Positions 2,078 through 11,492 of a stretch of 48,475 nucleotides of DNA are shown here, in pieces. This DNA comes from Chloroflexia bacterium (GTDB lineage: Bacteria; Chloroflexota; Chloroflexia; DTKN01). The stretch spans positions 1-48,475 of the forward strand of contig JAFGKG010000015.1 of the NCBI GenBank assembly GCA_016928715.1, written 5' to 3'. How positions within the stretch are numbered: the stretch's first letter is position 1; each line of letters opens with the position of its first letter. Below the pieces are notes generated by a model. The model was not told where the DNA came from. It ran no database searches and worked only from the letters and a program-made list of their open reading frames with translations. The translations under genes and the position numbers were made by a program.

Positions 2078-5000
2078 ATGCGCATTGAGCAAGTAATCAA
2101 ACGGGATGGATCCATCGTACGATTTGAGCGCCAGCGAATTGAAAAGGCCATCTATGCCGCCGCCCGGGCCGTGGGCAACGGGGAGAGCCGCCAGTGGGCC
2201 GAGACGCTCTCCTGGGCCGTGGTGGGAATCCTGGAGGAGCATTTCGTCCAGAATGGCCGGCAGACGCCCCAGGTGGAAGAGATCCAGGATATTGTCGAAG
2301 AGGTCCTGATCAAGTCGGGCAAACCCCAGGTGGCCAAGGCCTACATCCTCTACCGCCACCAGCGGGCCGAGGCCCGCGCCGCCCAGCGCATGCTGCTGGA
2401 CTCGGAAAAGCTGGTCGACGATTACCTGGATCGCCTGGATTGGCGGGTCAGCGAAAACAGCAACATGAACTATTCCCTACAGGGGCTCAACTTTTACCTG
2501 GCCTCCTCCATCGCCGCCCGCTACTGGCTGCACAAGATCTATCCCCCGGAGGTACAGCAGGCCCACCTGGAGGGGGATATGCACATCCATGATCTCGGGA
2601 TGCTGAGTACCTATTGCTGCGGCTGGGACCTCTACGACCTGCTGGTGCAGGGCTTTGGAGGCGTCTCGGCCAAAATCGAGAGCAACCCCCCCAAACACCT
2701 GCGCACCGCCCTGGGCCAACTGGTCAACTTTTTCTACACCCTGCAGGGAGAGGTGGCCGGCGCAGTGGCGGTCTCGAATTTTGACACGCTGATGGCCCCC
2801 TTTATCCGCTACGACGGGCTGGACTATCGCCAGCTCAAGCAGGCCCTACAGGAGTTTGTATTCAATATCAATGTGCCCACCCGGGTGGGCTTTCAGAGCC
2901 TGGTTTGGGATGAACTGGTGCTGGTGCGACGCAAGGGTCGGGTTGAGGTCGTCGAGATCGGCCAGTTGGTGGACGAACAGTTCGAACGCAATGGACACCG
3001 CGTGCTCAGCCAGGGAAATAGCAGTCGCGCGGTGGCCAACACCGACGACGTGCGGGCGCTGGCCTTTAACCAAGAGGGAGAGGTCGTCTGGGCCCCGGTC
3101 AAGGCCTTTGTCCGCCACCGCGTGCCCAATGGCGCGCCCTTTGTCCGGGTGCGCACCAGCCGGGGGACGGCGGCCATCTCCCAGGCCCACTCGCTTTTTG
3201 CCTTTGAACAACTGAACGGTCATTTCTCCGTTCGCCCGATGACGGCCCGCGACGTAGAGGTCGTCCACGGAAACGCAGTGATTGACGCTGCCAATCATTT
3301 CGTTGCCGTCCGTCGGGCGCCCAATGGGGGAACGCGCAGCAAAATTGACCTGGTCCATCTTATTGACGCTGTGCCAAAGATCGCAGAGCGGGCGCGGGTG
3401 CGAATTCCCAACCCGGCCGCCGGGGTCGCCCGCCTCCGACAGAAAGTGCAGGCTCGGTTCGGCGGGTTCACCCCCTTTTACCTGGAGTATGGAATCAAGG
3501 ACAAGGGCTGCTGGAATCGCTGGAAGCAAAGCGGGTCGATTTCCTACCGAATTTGGCGCGCCCTGGGCGAGGACGAAGCCGGGGCCCAATTTGCTCTGCG
3601 CAACAGCGATCTTTGGTACGAACGCACCCTGGCCGGGGAGCGGTTGGTCGAGTTTGTGCGACTGTTGGGCTGGTACATCACCGAGGGCCACAATGACATT
3701 ACAAACGGGCTGTTTGTCAGCCAGGCCCGGGGCGCCAATCAGGAAGAGATGGAGCGGGTGCTGCGGGCACTGGGGGCGCTGGGCCGTGTGGAGGAAACGG
3801 AAGGTTGGTCGGCCCTTGGCAACCCGATCAGTGAGGTGCTGCGCCTGGCCGGCAAGGGCCTGCTGGCCAGCCTGATCGGCTACCTGGCCGGCACCTATAG
3901 CACCAACAAGATGATCCCCTGGTTCGTCTACGACCTGACCCATCCCCTCCAGGAAACCCTGATCGCCACCCTGCTCCGTGGGGATGGCAGTGAGTACGAC
4001 CGCTACCACGATCTGACCACCACCTCGAAAAAGCTGAGCCTGGGCCTGAGCTTGCTTTTGGCCATGAACGGCTACAAGTTCAGCGTCTACGAAACCTCCT
4101 ACAAAGAGAAGGATTGGAACGACCAGTACACCCTGCGCATCTACAAGGACAAAGCCGCCGCCGAGCGCTACGAAGCCGGCGACCTGTTGGCCCGGGTGTG
4201 CACCAGGCGGGAGACCTTTGCCTACGACCGGGAGTACGAGTACGATCTCAGTGTGGATACCGAGCTGGAGAATTTCGTCGGCGGCAGCGGCTTGCTCTGC
4301 TTTCACAACACACCCTTTACAAACGTTACGATGGACCTTACCCCCCCCCCCACCCTGCGGGACCAGGCCGTGGTCATTGGGGGGCAGCCGCAGAACGCCA
4401 GCTATGGCGAATTCCAGGCCGAGATGGACATGTTCAACCGCGCCTTTGCCGAACTGATGCTGGAGGGGGACGCCAAAGCGCGCGTTTTTACGTTTCCTAT
4501 CCCCACTTACAACGTCACCCGCGATTTCGACTGGGAGAATCCCATCCTGGAGCCGGTGTGGTCGCTCAGCGCACGTTACGGCGTTCCGTATTGGAGTAAC
4601 TACATCAGTAGCGATATGGACCCCGAAGACGCTACCAGTATGTGTTGTCGGTTGCGCCTAGATCGACGCGAACTGCGCAAGCGCGCCGGCGGGCTCTTTG
4701 CCTCGGCGCCCCTCACTGGCTCGGTGGGCGTGGTCACCATCAATATGCCCCGCCTGGGCCACCAGGCCCACGACGAGGCCGATTTCCAGGCCCGCCTGGA
4801 GCGACTGATGGAGGTGGGCAAGACCAGCCTGGAGATCAAGCGCAAAATGCTCGAGACGCTCACCGAAAAGCGGCTCTACCCCTACGCCCGCCACTACCTG
4901 CGGGCCATCAAGCAGCAGACCAACGCCTATTGGAGCAACCACTTTTCCACCATCGGCCTCATCGGCATGAACGAGGCGGCCCTGAACCTGCTGGGCGTGA

Positions 5001-5524
5001 GCATCGCCCATCCCGAGGGCAAGGCCTTTGCCGTACGCACGCTCGAATTCATGCGCCAGATACTGGAACGCTTCCAGCACGAGACCGGCAACCTCTACAA
5101 CCTGGAGGCCACGCCGGCCGAGGGCGCCTCCTTCCGCCTGGCCCGGACCGACCGCGAGCACTATCCGCTGATCATCACCGCCGGCAGCGAGACGGCGCCC
5201 TATTACACCAACTCTACCCATCTCCCGGTCTCGTACAGCGACGATCTCTTTGAGGTGTTGGAGCACCAGGACGATCTGCAGACCCTCTACACCGGTGGGA
5301 CGGTGCTGCACATCTTTTTGGGAGAGCAACTGGACGACTGGCGCCAGGCCCGCCGATTGGTCCGCACGGTGGCCGAGAACTTTCGCCTGCCCTACTTTAC
5401 TCTCTCGCCCACATTTAGCATCTGCCCGGTGCACGGCTACATACCGGGCGAGCACAAGTATTGCCCCTACGAGCACACCGAGGATGAACTAGAACGATTT
5501 GGCCGGATTGTGGAGGGGAGCTAG
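2078..5524 (+). CDS. nrdD: Class III anaerobic ribonucleoside-triphosphate reductase, large chain, intein-containing, without glycyl-radical domain
   Basis: 1148 residues; removal of a 471-residue intein (residues 274-744) leaves 677. An ATP-cone at the N-terminus (MRIEQVIKRDGSIVRFERQR) would sense ATP/dATP. Catalytic landmarks are HIHDLGMLSTYCCGWDLYD and DATSMCCRLRLD, the latter holding the active-site Cys of class III enzymes. The C-terminus has the start of the zinc site (SICPVHGYIPGEHKYCPY), but the usual final Cys pair is replaced by EHTEDEL, and the chain stops at TAG 5522 before the RxxGY glycyl-radical motif. That motif is found in the next ORF (5560-5751). The enzyme reduces NTPs to dNTPs anaerobically using a glycyl radical made by NrdG, encoded downstream. 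Confidence 0.93.
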   Translation: MRIEQVIKRDGSIVRFERQRIEKAIYAAARAVGNGESRQWAETLSWAVVGILEEHFVQNGRQTPQVEEIQDIVEEVLIKSGKPQVAKAYILYRHQRAEARAAQRMLLDSEKLVDDYLDRLDWRVSENSNMNYSLQGLNFYLASSIAARYWLHKIYPPEVQQAHLEGDMHIHDLGMLSTYCCGWDLYDLLVQGFGGVSAKIESNPPKHLRTALGQLVNFFYTLQGEVAGAVAVSNFDTLMAPFIRYDGLDYRQLKQALQEFVFNINVPTRVGFQSLVWDELVLVRRKGRVEVVEIGQLVDEQFERNGHRVLSQGNSSRAVANTDDVRALAFNQEGEVVWAPVKAFVRHRVPNGAPFVRVRTSRGTAAISQAHSLFAFEQLNGHFSVRPMTARDVEVVHGNAVIDAANHFVAVRRAPNGGTRSKIDLVHLIDAVPKIAERARVRIPNPAAGVARLRQKVQARFGGFTPFYLEYGIKDKGCWNRWKQSGSISYRIWRALGEDEAGAQFALRNSDLWYERTLAGERLVEFVRLLGWYITEGHNDITNGLFVSQARGANQEEMERVLRALGALGRVEETEGWSALGNPISEVLRLAGKGLLASLIGYLAGTYSTNKMIPWFVYDLTHPLQETLIATLLRGDGSEYDRYHDLTTTSKKLSLGLSLLLAMNGYKFSVYETSYKEKDWNDQYTLRIYKDKAAAERYEAGDLLARVCTRRETFAYDREYEYDLSVDTELENFVGGSGLLCFHNTPFTNVTMDLTPPPTLRDQAVVIGGQPQNASYGEFQAEMDMFNRAFAELMLEGDAKARVFTFPIPTYNVTRDFDWENPILEPVWSLSARYGVPYWSNYISSDMDPEDATSMCCRLRLDRRELRKRAGGLFASAPLTGSVGVVTINMPRLGHQAHDEADFQARLERLMEVGKTSLEIKRKMLETLTEKRLYPYARHYLRAIKQQTNAYWSNHFSTIGLIGMNEAALNLLGVSIAHPEGKAFAVRTLEFMRQILERFQHETGNLYNLEATPAEGASFRLARTDREHYPLIITAGSETAPYYTNSTHLPVSYSDDLFEVLEHQDDLQTLYTGGTVLHIFLGEQLDDWRQARRLVRTVAENFRLPYFTLSPTFSICPVHGYIPGEHKYCPYEHTEDELERFGRIVEGS
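2897..4309 (+). other. Intein with LAGLIDADG (DOD) homing endonuclease inside NrdD
   Basis: The coding segment for residues 274-744 interrupts the conserved NrdD motif RVGFQ/TPFTN exactly between Gln and Thr. It begins with Ser rather than the more common Cys (SLVWDELVLV), has a block-B-like stretch RGTAAISQAHSLF, DOD endonuclease motifs LLGWYITEG (near residue 527) and LLRGDGSEYD (near 632), and ends in LLCFHN with the penultimate His and terminal Asn used for cyclisation; the +1 extein residue is Thr. All splicing blocks seem present, so it should splice, and the endonuclease acidic residues look intact, so the element may still be mobile. Inteins are known in other NrdD proteins, for example in Methanocaldococcus. 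Confidence 0.93.
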
Positions 5525-5559
5525 CCCCTGGTCAATCCCGATCGAACTGGAGGATACGG

Positions 5560-5751
5560 ATGAGCACACAGATCATGGAACAACTGGACGTTCAGGTCGT
5601 TGAGGAAACGGACGTTCAGGAGCGGCCCCAACTGCGGGTCCCCTGCGAGGTTTACAGCCGCATTGTCGGCTACCTGCGCCCCGTGCAGAACTGGCACGAG
5701 GGCAAGCAGCAGGAATTCAGCGAGCGCAAGACCTTTCGCCTGCCCGAGTAG
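5560..5751 (+). CDS. Stand-alone glycyl-radical domain of class III ribonucleotide reductase
   Basis: 63 residues from ATG, with GGAGG about six bases upstream. Residues 30-53 (EVYSRIVGYLRPVQNWHEGK then QQEF) are the C-terminal glycyl-radical segment normally fused to NrdD; Gly37 in RIVGY is the predicted radical site. The preceding 25 residues are acidic and unlike the usual linker. The single Cys29 might complete the zinc site left unfinished in the large chain. The gene starts 35 bases after the nrdD stop, in another frame, and nrdG follows three bases later, so large chain, radical domain and activase form an operon. The closest functional analogy is YfiD/GrcA, the detached glycyl-radical domain of pyruvate formate-lyase. 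It could also be a broken gene, but its own ribosome site argues for real expression. Confidence 0.88.
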   Translation: MSTQIMEQLDVQVVEETDVQERPQLRVPCEVYSRIVGYLRPVQNWHEGKQQEFSERKTFRLPE

Positions 5752-5754
5752 GGA

Positions 5755-6453
5755 ATGGAGATCAAGGGCTGGCAGCGCACCTCGCTGATCGACTATCCGG
5801 AACACATTGCCACCGTGTTCTTTACGGGCGGCTGCAATTTTCGCTGCCCCCTCTGCCACAATGCCGGCCTGGTCCTGCAGCCGGACGAATTCCCCTCCCT
5901 GTCCGAGGCCGAGGTCTGGGATTTCCTGCAGCGGCGGGCCGGCCTGCTGGACGGTGTCGTCCTCACCGGCGGCGAACCCACCCTGCAGCCCGACCTGCTG
6001 CCCTTTATCCGGCGCCTGCGCAGCTACGATCTCGCGGTCAAGCTGGATACCAACGGCTATCGCCCCGACGTCCTCCAAGCGCTGCTGGACGAGGGCCTGC
6101 TCGACTACGTGGCCATGGACGTCAAGGCCCCCCCGGTCAAGTATGCCCTGCTGGCCGGCCGGCCCAACCTGGACCTGTCCCGCATCGAAGGCAGCATCGC
6201 CCTGCTCAAAGCGAGCAATGTGGCGTACGAGTTCCGCACCACCGTCGTCCCCGGGCTGCTGGACGAGGAGGACATCGTCCAGGTCGCCCAGTGGGTGACC
6301 GACGCCCCCCTGTACGCCCTGCAGCAGTTCCGCCCCCAGGGCACGCTGGATCCGGCCCTGGAGCAGGTCTCGCCCTATCCCACGGAGCGGATGCAGTCCA
6401 TGGCCGAACGGGCCGGCCGGCACGTGGAACGGGTCGTCCTACGGGGAGTATAA
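5755..6453 (+). CDS. nrdG: Anaerobic ribonucleotide reductase activating protein (radical SAM)
   Basis: 232 residues. The radical SAM cluster motif Cys27-x3-Cys31-x2-Cys34 lies in TGGCNFRCPLCHNAG, followed by VVLTGGEPTLQ (the GGE SAM-binding motif) and DTNGY. The protein reductively cleaves S-adenosylmethionine to abstract hydrogen from the NrdD glycine. It is close to the longer NrdG/PflA-like type with MEIKGWQRTSLIDYP at the start. The ATG lies three bases after the stop of the glycyl-radical ORF, implying translational coupling; its natural target would be Gly37 of that small protein. Confidence 0.92.
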   Translation: MEIKGWQRTSLIDYPEHIATVFFTGGCNFRCPLCHNAGLVLQPDEFPSLSEAEVWDFLQRRAGLLDGVVLTGGEPTLQPDLLPFIRRLRSYDLAVKLDTNGYRPDVLQALLDEGLLDYVAMDVKAPPVKYALLAGRPNLDLSRIEGSIALLKASNVAYEFRTTVVPGLLDEEDIVQVAQWVTDAPLYALQQFRPQGTLDPALEQVSPYPTERMQSMAERAGRHVERVVLRGV

Positions 6454-7867: not shown

Positions 7868-8144
7868 AGTACAGAGCAATGGCTTTGACGGAGACGAGTA
7901 GGCCGGCGCGAAAGCCCAGCGAGCCTGGGACGGGTGAAAGCCAGGCGCCGACAAACCGGCCGAATATCCCTCCCGAGCCGGCAACCCAAACGGGTCCATG
8001 GCTGGACCAGGAGTAGGCTTGTCCGGGGTCGCCGCCCGTTATCCCAGGCGCGGGGATGCTGGTCCCCGTCAAGAGCGGGCGGCAACGCCAACCAGGGTGG
8101 TACCACGGGTCACCAACCCGTCCCTGCAGGGACGGGCTTTTTTT
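7868..8144 (+). ncRNA. Ile-specific T-box riboswitch, first (complete) unit
   Basis: The leader has the conserved T-box order: GGAGACGAGTAGG near the 5' end (the AGTA element of stem I), CAGCGAGCCTGGGACGGGTG, a specifier-loop-like GAATATCCCTCC in which ATC is an isoleucine codon, and the antiterminator T-box AGGGTGGTACCACG at 8094-8107. A terminator follows at 8117-8144. Uncharged tRNA-Ile would pair with the ATC specifier and, by its NCCA end, with GGTGG, preventing termination. The downstream gene is ileS, matching the specifier. Confidence 0.9.
8117..8144 (+). terminator. T-box intrinsic terminator
   Basis: CCCGTCCC / GGGACGGG form an 8-bp stem with a TGCA loop, followed by C and seven T. 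The left arm can pair alternatively with CACGGG of the T-box, giving the antiterminator switch. Confidence 0.88.
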
Positions 8145-8169
8145 GTACCCTGGCGGCGCTGCGCCAACG

Positions 8170-8214
8170 AGGGTGGTACCGCGGGTCATCAGCCCGTCCC
8201 TGAGAGGGACGGGC
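8170..8214 (+). promoter_or_regulatory. Second T-box antiterminator module without a U-run
   Basis: A second T-box AGGGTGGTACCGCG (8170-8183) is followed by GCCCGTCCC (8192-8200) and GGGACGGGC (8206-8214), a 9-bp hairpin nearly identical to the first terminator, but the following bases are CTCTACGTT rather than T-rich. No second stem I or specifier precedes it. It looks like a partial duplication of the 3' half of the riboswitch, either decayed or acting by another mechanism. CCTC (8214-8217) can pair with GAGG of the ribosome site at 8228-8231. Confidence 0.8.
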
Positions 8215-8237
8215 CTCTACGTTAAAGGAGGTGCAAC

Positions 8238-11343: not shown

Positions 11344-11370
11344 AACGTTAACGCGTTGGCACGTTGGGTA

Positions 11371-11492
11371 CGTTCTAACGCGCGAACGTGCGAACGTACC
11401 CAACGTTCTAACGCGCGAACGTGCGAACGTACCCAACGTTCTAACGCGCGAACGTGCGAACGTACAGACCGTTCTAACGCACAAACCGTCAA
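11371..11492. repeat. 33-bp tandem repeat, 3.3 copies
   Basis: Exact-period 33-bp units begin at 11371, 11404, 11437 and 11470 (the last partial). Each begins CGTTCTAACGCGCGAACGTG and is built from smaller AACGT words, some as inverted pairs. The flanks 11341-11370 and 11493-11520 contain decayed related words (AACGTTAACGCGTTGG, AACCGTCAA). It lies between the 3' ends of ileS (+) and the convergent glycosylase gene (-). The 33-bp period keeps frames open, but no start or homology supports coding. Confidence 0.85.

Follow-up and report, generated by a model that had tools for sequence, protein, structure and literature searches.

The window analysed here is the whole stretch of 48,475 nucleotides of contig JAFGKG010000015.1 (positions 1 to 48,475) from assembly GCA_016928715.1 of a Chloroflexia bacterium, and it carries on its forward strand a class III ribonucleotide reductase locus in which the glycyl radical domain is encoded apart from the catalytic chain. 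The nrdD gene (2078..5524) encodes the precursor of the large, catalytic chain, P0001, which has 1148 residues and matches NF006126/PRK08270 (983 bits), PF13597 (NRDD, 565 bits) and PF03477 (82.6 bits). The precursor consists of an ATP-cone domain (2090..2368; PF03477, residues 5 to 97, E 2.9e-23), a barrel and a zinc hairpin, and has no glycyl radical domain. The last coding base is 5521 and the stop codon, TAG at 5522-5524, is preceded by the tail ...CPYEHTEDELERFGRIVEGS. A small open reading frame (ORF) follows at 5560..5751, with a GGAGG ribosome-binding site visible in the sequence at 5549..5553 and an ATG at 5560. Its product, P0002, is a stand-alone glycyl radical domain protein of 63 residues with the motif RIVGY at 5659-5673, the radical glycine, Gly37, at 5668-5670 and Cys29 at 5644-5646. 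The ATG of nrdG, at 5755, is located three bases past the stop of the small ORF, and nrdG (5755..6453) encodes an NrdG2-type radical S-adenosylmethionine activase (TIGR02495, 203 bits against a cut-off of 131). This gene order, including the stop at 5522 and the 63-codon ORF with its own GGAGG, had been described in an earlier sequence-only reading of the window, and its coordinates were confirmed, as were the positions of Gly37 and Cys29 in the translation.

The match of P0002 is confined to the final 30 positions of NRDD (PF13597 533-562, E 9e-10) and that of the large chain runs to position 540, so the two matches together cover NRDD and the large chain and the small ORF add up to one complete NrdD. 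The system has the homology in barrel and ATP-cone, the glycyl radical motif and the dedicated activase NrdG of a class III ribonucleotide reductase, except that the C-terminal glycyl radical motif is found on a separate ORF and not on the catalytic chain. A phenylalanine in the finger loop and an MCCR motif (4640..4651), of which M and both cysteines are invariant in the alignments, agree with the NrdDh4 type of class III enzyme, as this subgroup is described in the accessible part of PMC4493059.

The large chain also contains an intein, which went unnoticed in the first reading of nrdD. It comprises 471 residues (274-744 of P0001; 2897..4309) inserted cleanly between GFQ and TPF, with serine as its first and asparagine as its last residue and threonine as the residue that follows. 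LAGLIDADG_3 scores 21.6 bits within it, slightly below the cut-off of 22.5, the Hint match is weak, and a sequence search of structures with P0001 retrieves intein-containing entries. Alignment of the insertion site places an intein at the same site, GFQ/TPF, in four relatives (L086, L095, L102 and L131); further NrdD relatives have inserts at other sites. Because the intein would be excised, the mature core is predicted to have 677 residues, and six intein-free split relatives are of like size (675-688 residues).

The zinc hairpin of the large chain includes C1116, H1119, C1129 and H1133 (CPVH...CPYEH, 5423..5476) as candidate ligands. The pattern C-x-x-H...C-x-x-C stands before the radical motif in 56 of the 73 fused relatives counted. 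Split cores of the clade of the window have CPxH...CPY[EDP]H (CPHPH in L103), with the last histidine kept in 18 of 18 and the large chain ending soon after, so that four candidate ligands (C, H, C, H) stay on the large chain; two newly read split cores have CPH[ED]H, and a split core from a DPANN archaeon (L122) has lost both cysteines. It had been proposed that a zinc site is shared between the chains through Cys29, and this was not supported. All 20 small proteins aligned have Cys29, and the small protein of the newly read genome G654 has valine there; a cysteine also stands before EVYSR in 43 of the 56 fused enzymes that have the full C, H, C, C set. Cys29 is therefore no specific complement, and the small-chain cysteine is not confined to cases in which a large-chain ligand is missing. 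The tail of the large chain had also been likened to a degenerate radical motif. This is contradicted by the fused relative L130, one sequence, in which a similar segment, CPYDHTPDEL, lies upstream of the true radical motif and looks like a linker.

Genome contigs were scanned with the small protein and the best 80 of 537 loci were kept, a choice that leans towards the kind of locus seen in the window. The loci were sorted with profiles built from 17 fused loci. VYSRIVGY served as the search seed for both the viral and the genome scans, so that its invariance among the loci is partly by construction; likewise, Gly37 is invariant in 20 of 20 aligned small proteins, most of which were found with a seed containing it. 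The order of nrdD, an ORF of about 60 residues and nrdG, which was to be looked for in relatives, was recovered in 11 further Chloroflexota loci (L082, L085-L090, L092, L093, L104 and L128), each of them a single fragment that contains a truncated core, nrdG and a radical domain encoded apart from the core; in four others (L083, L084, L094 and L146) the fragment has the domain and nrdG without a core. Since the order is conserved in relatives, chance is excluded. In the window the small ORF is offset from nrdD by a frame of 2, and over the window and the 11 loci the relative frame is 0 in six of 12, 1 in four and 2 in two. All 12 have an in-frame ATG with an upstream GGAGG or AGGAG. In L086, the nearest row by tree path (80% identity), a distance of 5.7 kb separates the core from the small gene and nrdG.

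These data bear on whether a sequencing or assembly frameshift near 5485-5560 has broken a normal fused nrdD. In favour of such a break are the 226 contigs of the assembly, of which the window is one, and the overlap of the open frames at 5488-5521; one of the loci, L098, looks like such a case. The same split with its own starts is found in other species, including Thermosulfurimonas dismutans S95 (L100), and in genomes with megabase contigs such as G575, and the CPY[EDP]H tail shortly before the stop is conserved; an error of this kind is considered extremely improbable.

Selection was estimated from pooled proportions of synonymous (pS) and nonsynonymous (pN) differences. Over 34 codons of the small gene in 17 Chloroflexota sequences pS was 0.70 and pN 0.13, and the order was reversed when the same 34 codons were read in a shifted frame (0.19 versus 0.27). 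The 22 codons after the VYSRIVGY seed alone gave a pS of 0.71 and a pN of 0.16, and the tail of the core (last 31 codons from TFSIC on, 13 cores) a pS of 0.80 and a pN of 0.14. In the ten linker codons that precede the domain pN is 0.61, so that constraint acts on the domain but not on the junction.

A programmed frameshift or stop read-through might also join both frames into one chain, and in five of the 12 Chloroflexota loci (L082, L085, L090, L092 and L128), as in three further genomes, the open frame of the small gene does start in the frame of the core at most 117 bases from the core stop. Such a mechanism is at odds with the occurrence of frames 0, 1 and 2, the ATG and ribosome-binding site of all 12 small genes, the distance in L086 and the lack of constraint on the linker at the protein level, and it is judged highly improbable. 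Because the frames vary, the small genes have their own start signals and L086 has its two parts so far apart, neither a frameshift error nor programmed frameshifting nor read-through can explain the set. That the pair is decaying and non-functional was the third possibility weighed, a truncated chain beside a small fragment being what decay may look like. The pN far below pS in both the small gene and the core tail, the conservation over a deep clade, and the finding of no match to PF02867, the class I/II barrel, in the genome of the window or in nine of the 17 Chloroflexota genomes that have a split or stand-alone locus speak against it, and decay is regarded as extremely unlikely.

The genome of the window (G000) comprises 3.54 Mb in 226 contigs and is 88.9% complete. 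A search of it gave no NRDD match beyond the three of the window itself and no PF02867 match, the control search being positive in 11 of 14 genomes; at this completeness the missing class I/II enzyme is not proof of absence. In the phylum sample of the window, ten of 400 genomes have an NRDD match (window genome counted) and three of the ten are split. None of 60 same-class relatives has one, and comparisons were therefore drawn from other classes. Thirty-one genomes were also examined, namely those from which the split or stand-alone loci come and that of L130. In 28 of them the search listed no full-length NRDD match free of interruption; in three of the 28 (G495, G489 and G477) the matches listed are fragmentary or run on across in-frame stops. 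Two genomes (G496 and G497) have a full fused NrdD as well, and one (G492) has the fused form only. A class I/II barrel was found in 14 of the 31, and among the 17 Chloroflexota (apart from that of L130) in eight.

A quick IQ-TREE phylogeny was built from 98 cores (25 split, 73 fused) with the tail columns omitted and with support from the Shimodaira-Hasegawa-like approximate likelihood ratio test (SH-aLRT) only. Six duplicate fragments (L001-L003 and L012-L014) and cores filled in less than 55% of the columns were omitted, and L103 was kept by merging its two pieces. The window falls within nine split rows (SH-aLRT 100), which belong to a wider clade of 15 Chloroflexota rows, 14 split plus the fused L130 (SH-aLRT 100), and this in turn to a clade of 19 rows, 18 of them split, which adds four Thermodesulfobacteriaceae including T. 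dismutans S95 (SH-aLRT 95). L130 keeps its CPYDHTPDEL tail as an internal linker, as would be seen after a re-fusion or in a remnant of the pre-split form. Split rows beyond the 19-row clade come from Nealsonbacteria (L109 and L145), Micrarchaeota (L149 and L157), the DPANN archaeon L122, a spirochaete (L155) and a virus (L036); the placement of single long rows in the core tree is unsure. At least eight changes between the split and fused states are needed on the tree, five of which are forced by starred branches. In the micrarchaeote L149 (6097-11124), a split NrdD, a small radical-domain gene and nrdG are followed directly by a second, fused NrdD.

Same-frame match rows alone do not reveal a stop between core and domain, hence the junctions were read individually. 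In the class of G479, an even sample gave a match in 43 of 396 genomes, of which 22 are split, 17 fused and four unsorted (G848, G895, G928 and G1069); in G928 the core stops and no domain occurs within the 750 bases read. Two of the 17 fused genomes (G730 and G788) bear an extra stand-alone domain. Junctions were read in 18 of the 22 split genomes (nine earlier loci and nine newly fetched), and in each the core frame ends at a stop and the domain has an ORF to itself. In the phylum of T. dismutans (G484), 129 of 198 genomes have a match, and in 18 of them the core match ends at model position 526-537; all 18 junctions (S95 as L100, and 17 fetched) again show a core stop followed by a separate domain ORF. 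Five of these 18 genomes (G637, G575, G664, G689 and G608; L179, L182 and L185-L187) carry a different NrdD sequence type, the small ORF of which reads RRITGYL...DRFNNAKRAEE[RH]DRVKH. The split therefore also arose, or was kept, outside the NrdD type of the window, and by their sequences the five genomes apparently represent a separate case of it. The proposal that the radical domain of this class III reductase resides on a separate chain is strongly supported by the conservation of the split across many species, with starts of its own, varying frames, the distance of 5.7 kb in L086, purifying selection and the lack of an uninterrupted full-length NRDD match in 28 of 31 genomes.

Stand-alone radical domains were also found in viruses. 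The viral loci counted are those close to P0002, which was the query, and are no census; any of the virus records may be fragmentary. The domain is a short ORF in 46 of 61 viral loci and fused in 15. A whole-record search of the 46 viral records and the archaeal virus ANMV-1 found a core in one of 47 (L036), and 22 of the 47 records exceed 30 kb. Every one of the 47 stand-alone domains has a start codon and 37 have a Shine-Dalgarno-like site, and outside the seed the viral domains have a pS of 0.89 and a pN of 0.34. Two CxxC pairs occur in the open frame of 12 of the 46 viral domains counted, as if these brought their own zinc ribbon. Among 20 neighbour proteins scanned beside 13 viral domains, many were without match and some were plain phage genes, namely a terminase and a portal around L070, a terminase at L054, a primase at L047, a DNA polymerase near L063 and a tail fibre at L038. 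ANMV-1 encodes a stand-alone radical domain of 144 residues (AJP62049.1; L079:5677-6111) that is annotated as an anaerobic ribonucleoside triphosphate reductase. Searches of PHROGs gave weak NrdD matches and, for two viral domains, phrog_4132, a family without assigned function. Seven of eight other stand-alone domains match PF13597 only, and the eighth also matches zinc ribbons below their cut-offs. In the spirochaete locus L155 (2680-3249), the radical domain and a glutaredoxin domain (PF00462, 25.2 bits against a cut-off of 22.9) are joined in one protein, which possibly links the radical domain with a reductant.

The small protein could be a spare part of the GrcA kind that repairs an oxygen-cleaved NrdD and not an obligate subunit. 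Stand-alone domains do occur beside a full fused NrdD in G181, G730, G788 and G497 (G181 and G730 have identical coordinates and look like one genome) and in viruses without a core, and the available text of PMC8683613, in which Y06I of phage T4 is a spare part for pyruvate formate-lyase, treats such parts for other glycyl radical enzymes as possible but unproven. In the organism of the window there is nothing to repair, because the large chain itself carries no radical glycine and no other NRDD match was found in the genome; a repair role for P0002 is considered very unlikely. The viral copies, by analogy with Y06I, may serve the NrdD of the host. On a broader view, there is about an even chance that the radical domains of NrdD type make up a large group of autonomous radical cofactors that has gone unrecognised. 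These would be obligate NrdD subunits in several cellular lineages and at least two NrdD types; where they stand alone, as in other cells, many phages and an archaeal virus, they would act in trans on the host NrdD as exchangeable carriers of the radical, to keep or restore the supply of deoxyribonucleoside triphosphates during infection or after oxygen damage.

For the window, the system is very probably a functional and obligately two-chain class III ribonucleotide reductase that is activated by NrdG. The gene layout and its conservation are direct observations; assembly from two chains, activation in trans and catalysis are highly probable inferences. After excision of the intein the large chain would provide ATP-cone, zinc hairpin and the barrel in which the MCCR cysteines lie, and the 63-residue chain the radical glycine. 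NrdG would generate the radical on Gly37 of the small chain; with its RIVGY loop docked in the barrel, this chain would bring in the radical that starts ribonucleotide reduction there. The break appears to sit in a flexible stretch that joins the zinc hairpin to the radical loop, and would therefore leave the fold undisturbed. A likely benefit, itself hypothetical, is that a small oxygen-damaged part could be replaced without remaking the whole enzyme. The radical domain is mobile even when fused, as the whole of it is disordered in the deoxyadenosine triphosphate (dATP) form of the Prevotella copri enzyme according to the accessible portion of PMC11226230.

A structure model was made of L085, read through its single stop and aligned with 39 relatives, as a linked stand-in for the two chains. 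The mean predicted local distance difference test score (pLDDT) was 84.4, with about 92 for residues 651-680, 79 for 681-690 and less than 50 for 695-711, and block means of 81, 83, 87 and 75 over the radical domain (711-750). In a Foldseek search of the PDB with this model the top matches were NrdD structures: 8p2c had an E of 5e-30, and the T. maritima entries had TM-scores of about 0.7 when scaled to target length. The model places the break in a flexible linker and is compatible with docking; because fused relatives inform it, it is no evidence of trans binding. The model of the window precursor, with its thin alignment and its intein, had a mean pLDDT of 68.9 and tail blocks of 48-67, the tail being less certain without the radical domain, and was otherwise unused. 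A sequence search of the PDB with the 63-residue protein gave no match.

Several observations weigh against a two-chain enzyme. The fused L130 (1-1785) lies inside the split Chloroflexota clade; L098 has no start codon before the domain and is probably a frameshifted fused gene or an error; and, in the G479 class, core and domain lie on different contigs in four of the 22 split genomes (G470, G478, G481 and G1040). The named loci are mostly from metagenome assemblies and the window genome is incomplete, at the 88.9% given above. The L085 model is linked and informed by fused relatives, gives no contacts, and falls below 50 in the finger-loop stretch (399-417).

Elsewhere in the window, a T-box leader was detected at 7876-8215 (85.9 bits, slightly below the family cut-off of 93), and the ORF downstream of it resembles an isoleucyl-tRNA synthetase by eye. 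The T-box is followed by a second GGGTGGTACC and a hairpin that looks by eye like a terminator, so that the antiterminator/terminator module seems duplicated. A tandem repeat with a 33-base unit, 3.4 copies and 96% matches occupies 11370-11480.

A natural two-chain version of the enzyme makes it testable whether NrdG activates an isolated radical domain and whether the radical loop enters the barrel in trans. It also bears on spare parts for reductases, as known for pyruvate formate-lyase, a question left open in the available part of PMC8683613, accounts for short viral ORFs that bear a reductase annotation, among them AJP62049.1, and offers a host-metabolism hypothesis for phages of anaerobes. 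Class III reductases are described with the radical glycine on the catalytic chain, as in the wording 'glycine in enzyme' in the accessible text of PMC4390871. Judged from its genes, the system of the window is a class III reductase that departs from this description and, the zinc site aside, has the other testable features of the class. The sequence-only reading knew of no described split NrdD of this kind, and in agreement with this a split NrdD with a detached radical domain was not found in the open-licence literature, which omits most subscription journals.

Among known systems, the NrdD of the PRK08270 or NrdDh4-like (MCCR) type shares with that of the window the ATP-cone, barrel, MCCR motif, zinc hairpin, adjacent nrdG and RIVGY, whereas in the window the radical domain is a separate product, an intein is present and the position of the fourth zinc ligand is changed from cysteine to a histidine one residue on. 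The domain of GrcA/YfiD belongs to the PFL-type Gly_radical family, whereas P0002 matches PF13597 only and its parent chain has no radical glycine of its own, which would make it an obligate part and not a repair part. GrcA/YfiD and T4 Y06I, so far as the available text of PMC8683613 describes them, are likewise small stand-alone glycyl radical domains, expected to dock onto the parent enzyme and to be activated by its activase. Phage nrdD and nrdA genes that are interrupted or fragmented, with NrdD in pieces and with introns, inteins and homing endonucleases in the reductase genes, are reported in the accessible part of PMC3653736; those come from individual phages or small phage groups and mostly involve mobile elements, whereas the split of the window lies at the boundary of the radical domain and recurs across phyla, a comparison made by description and not by exact break points. 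NrdJa/NrdJb of Pseudomonas aeruginosa, as presented in the available portion of PMC4520616, is also a ribonucleotide reductase of two chains from one operon, but it is a class II cobalamin enzyme, for which the genome of the window has no PF02867 match, and its detached part carries out disulfide exchange and bears no radical, whereas the detached part encoded in the window would carry the radical itself.

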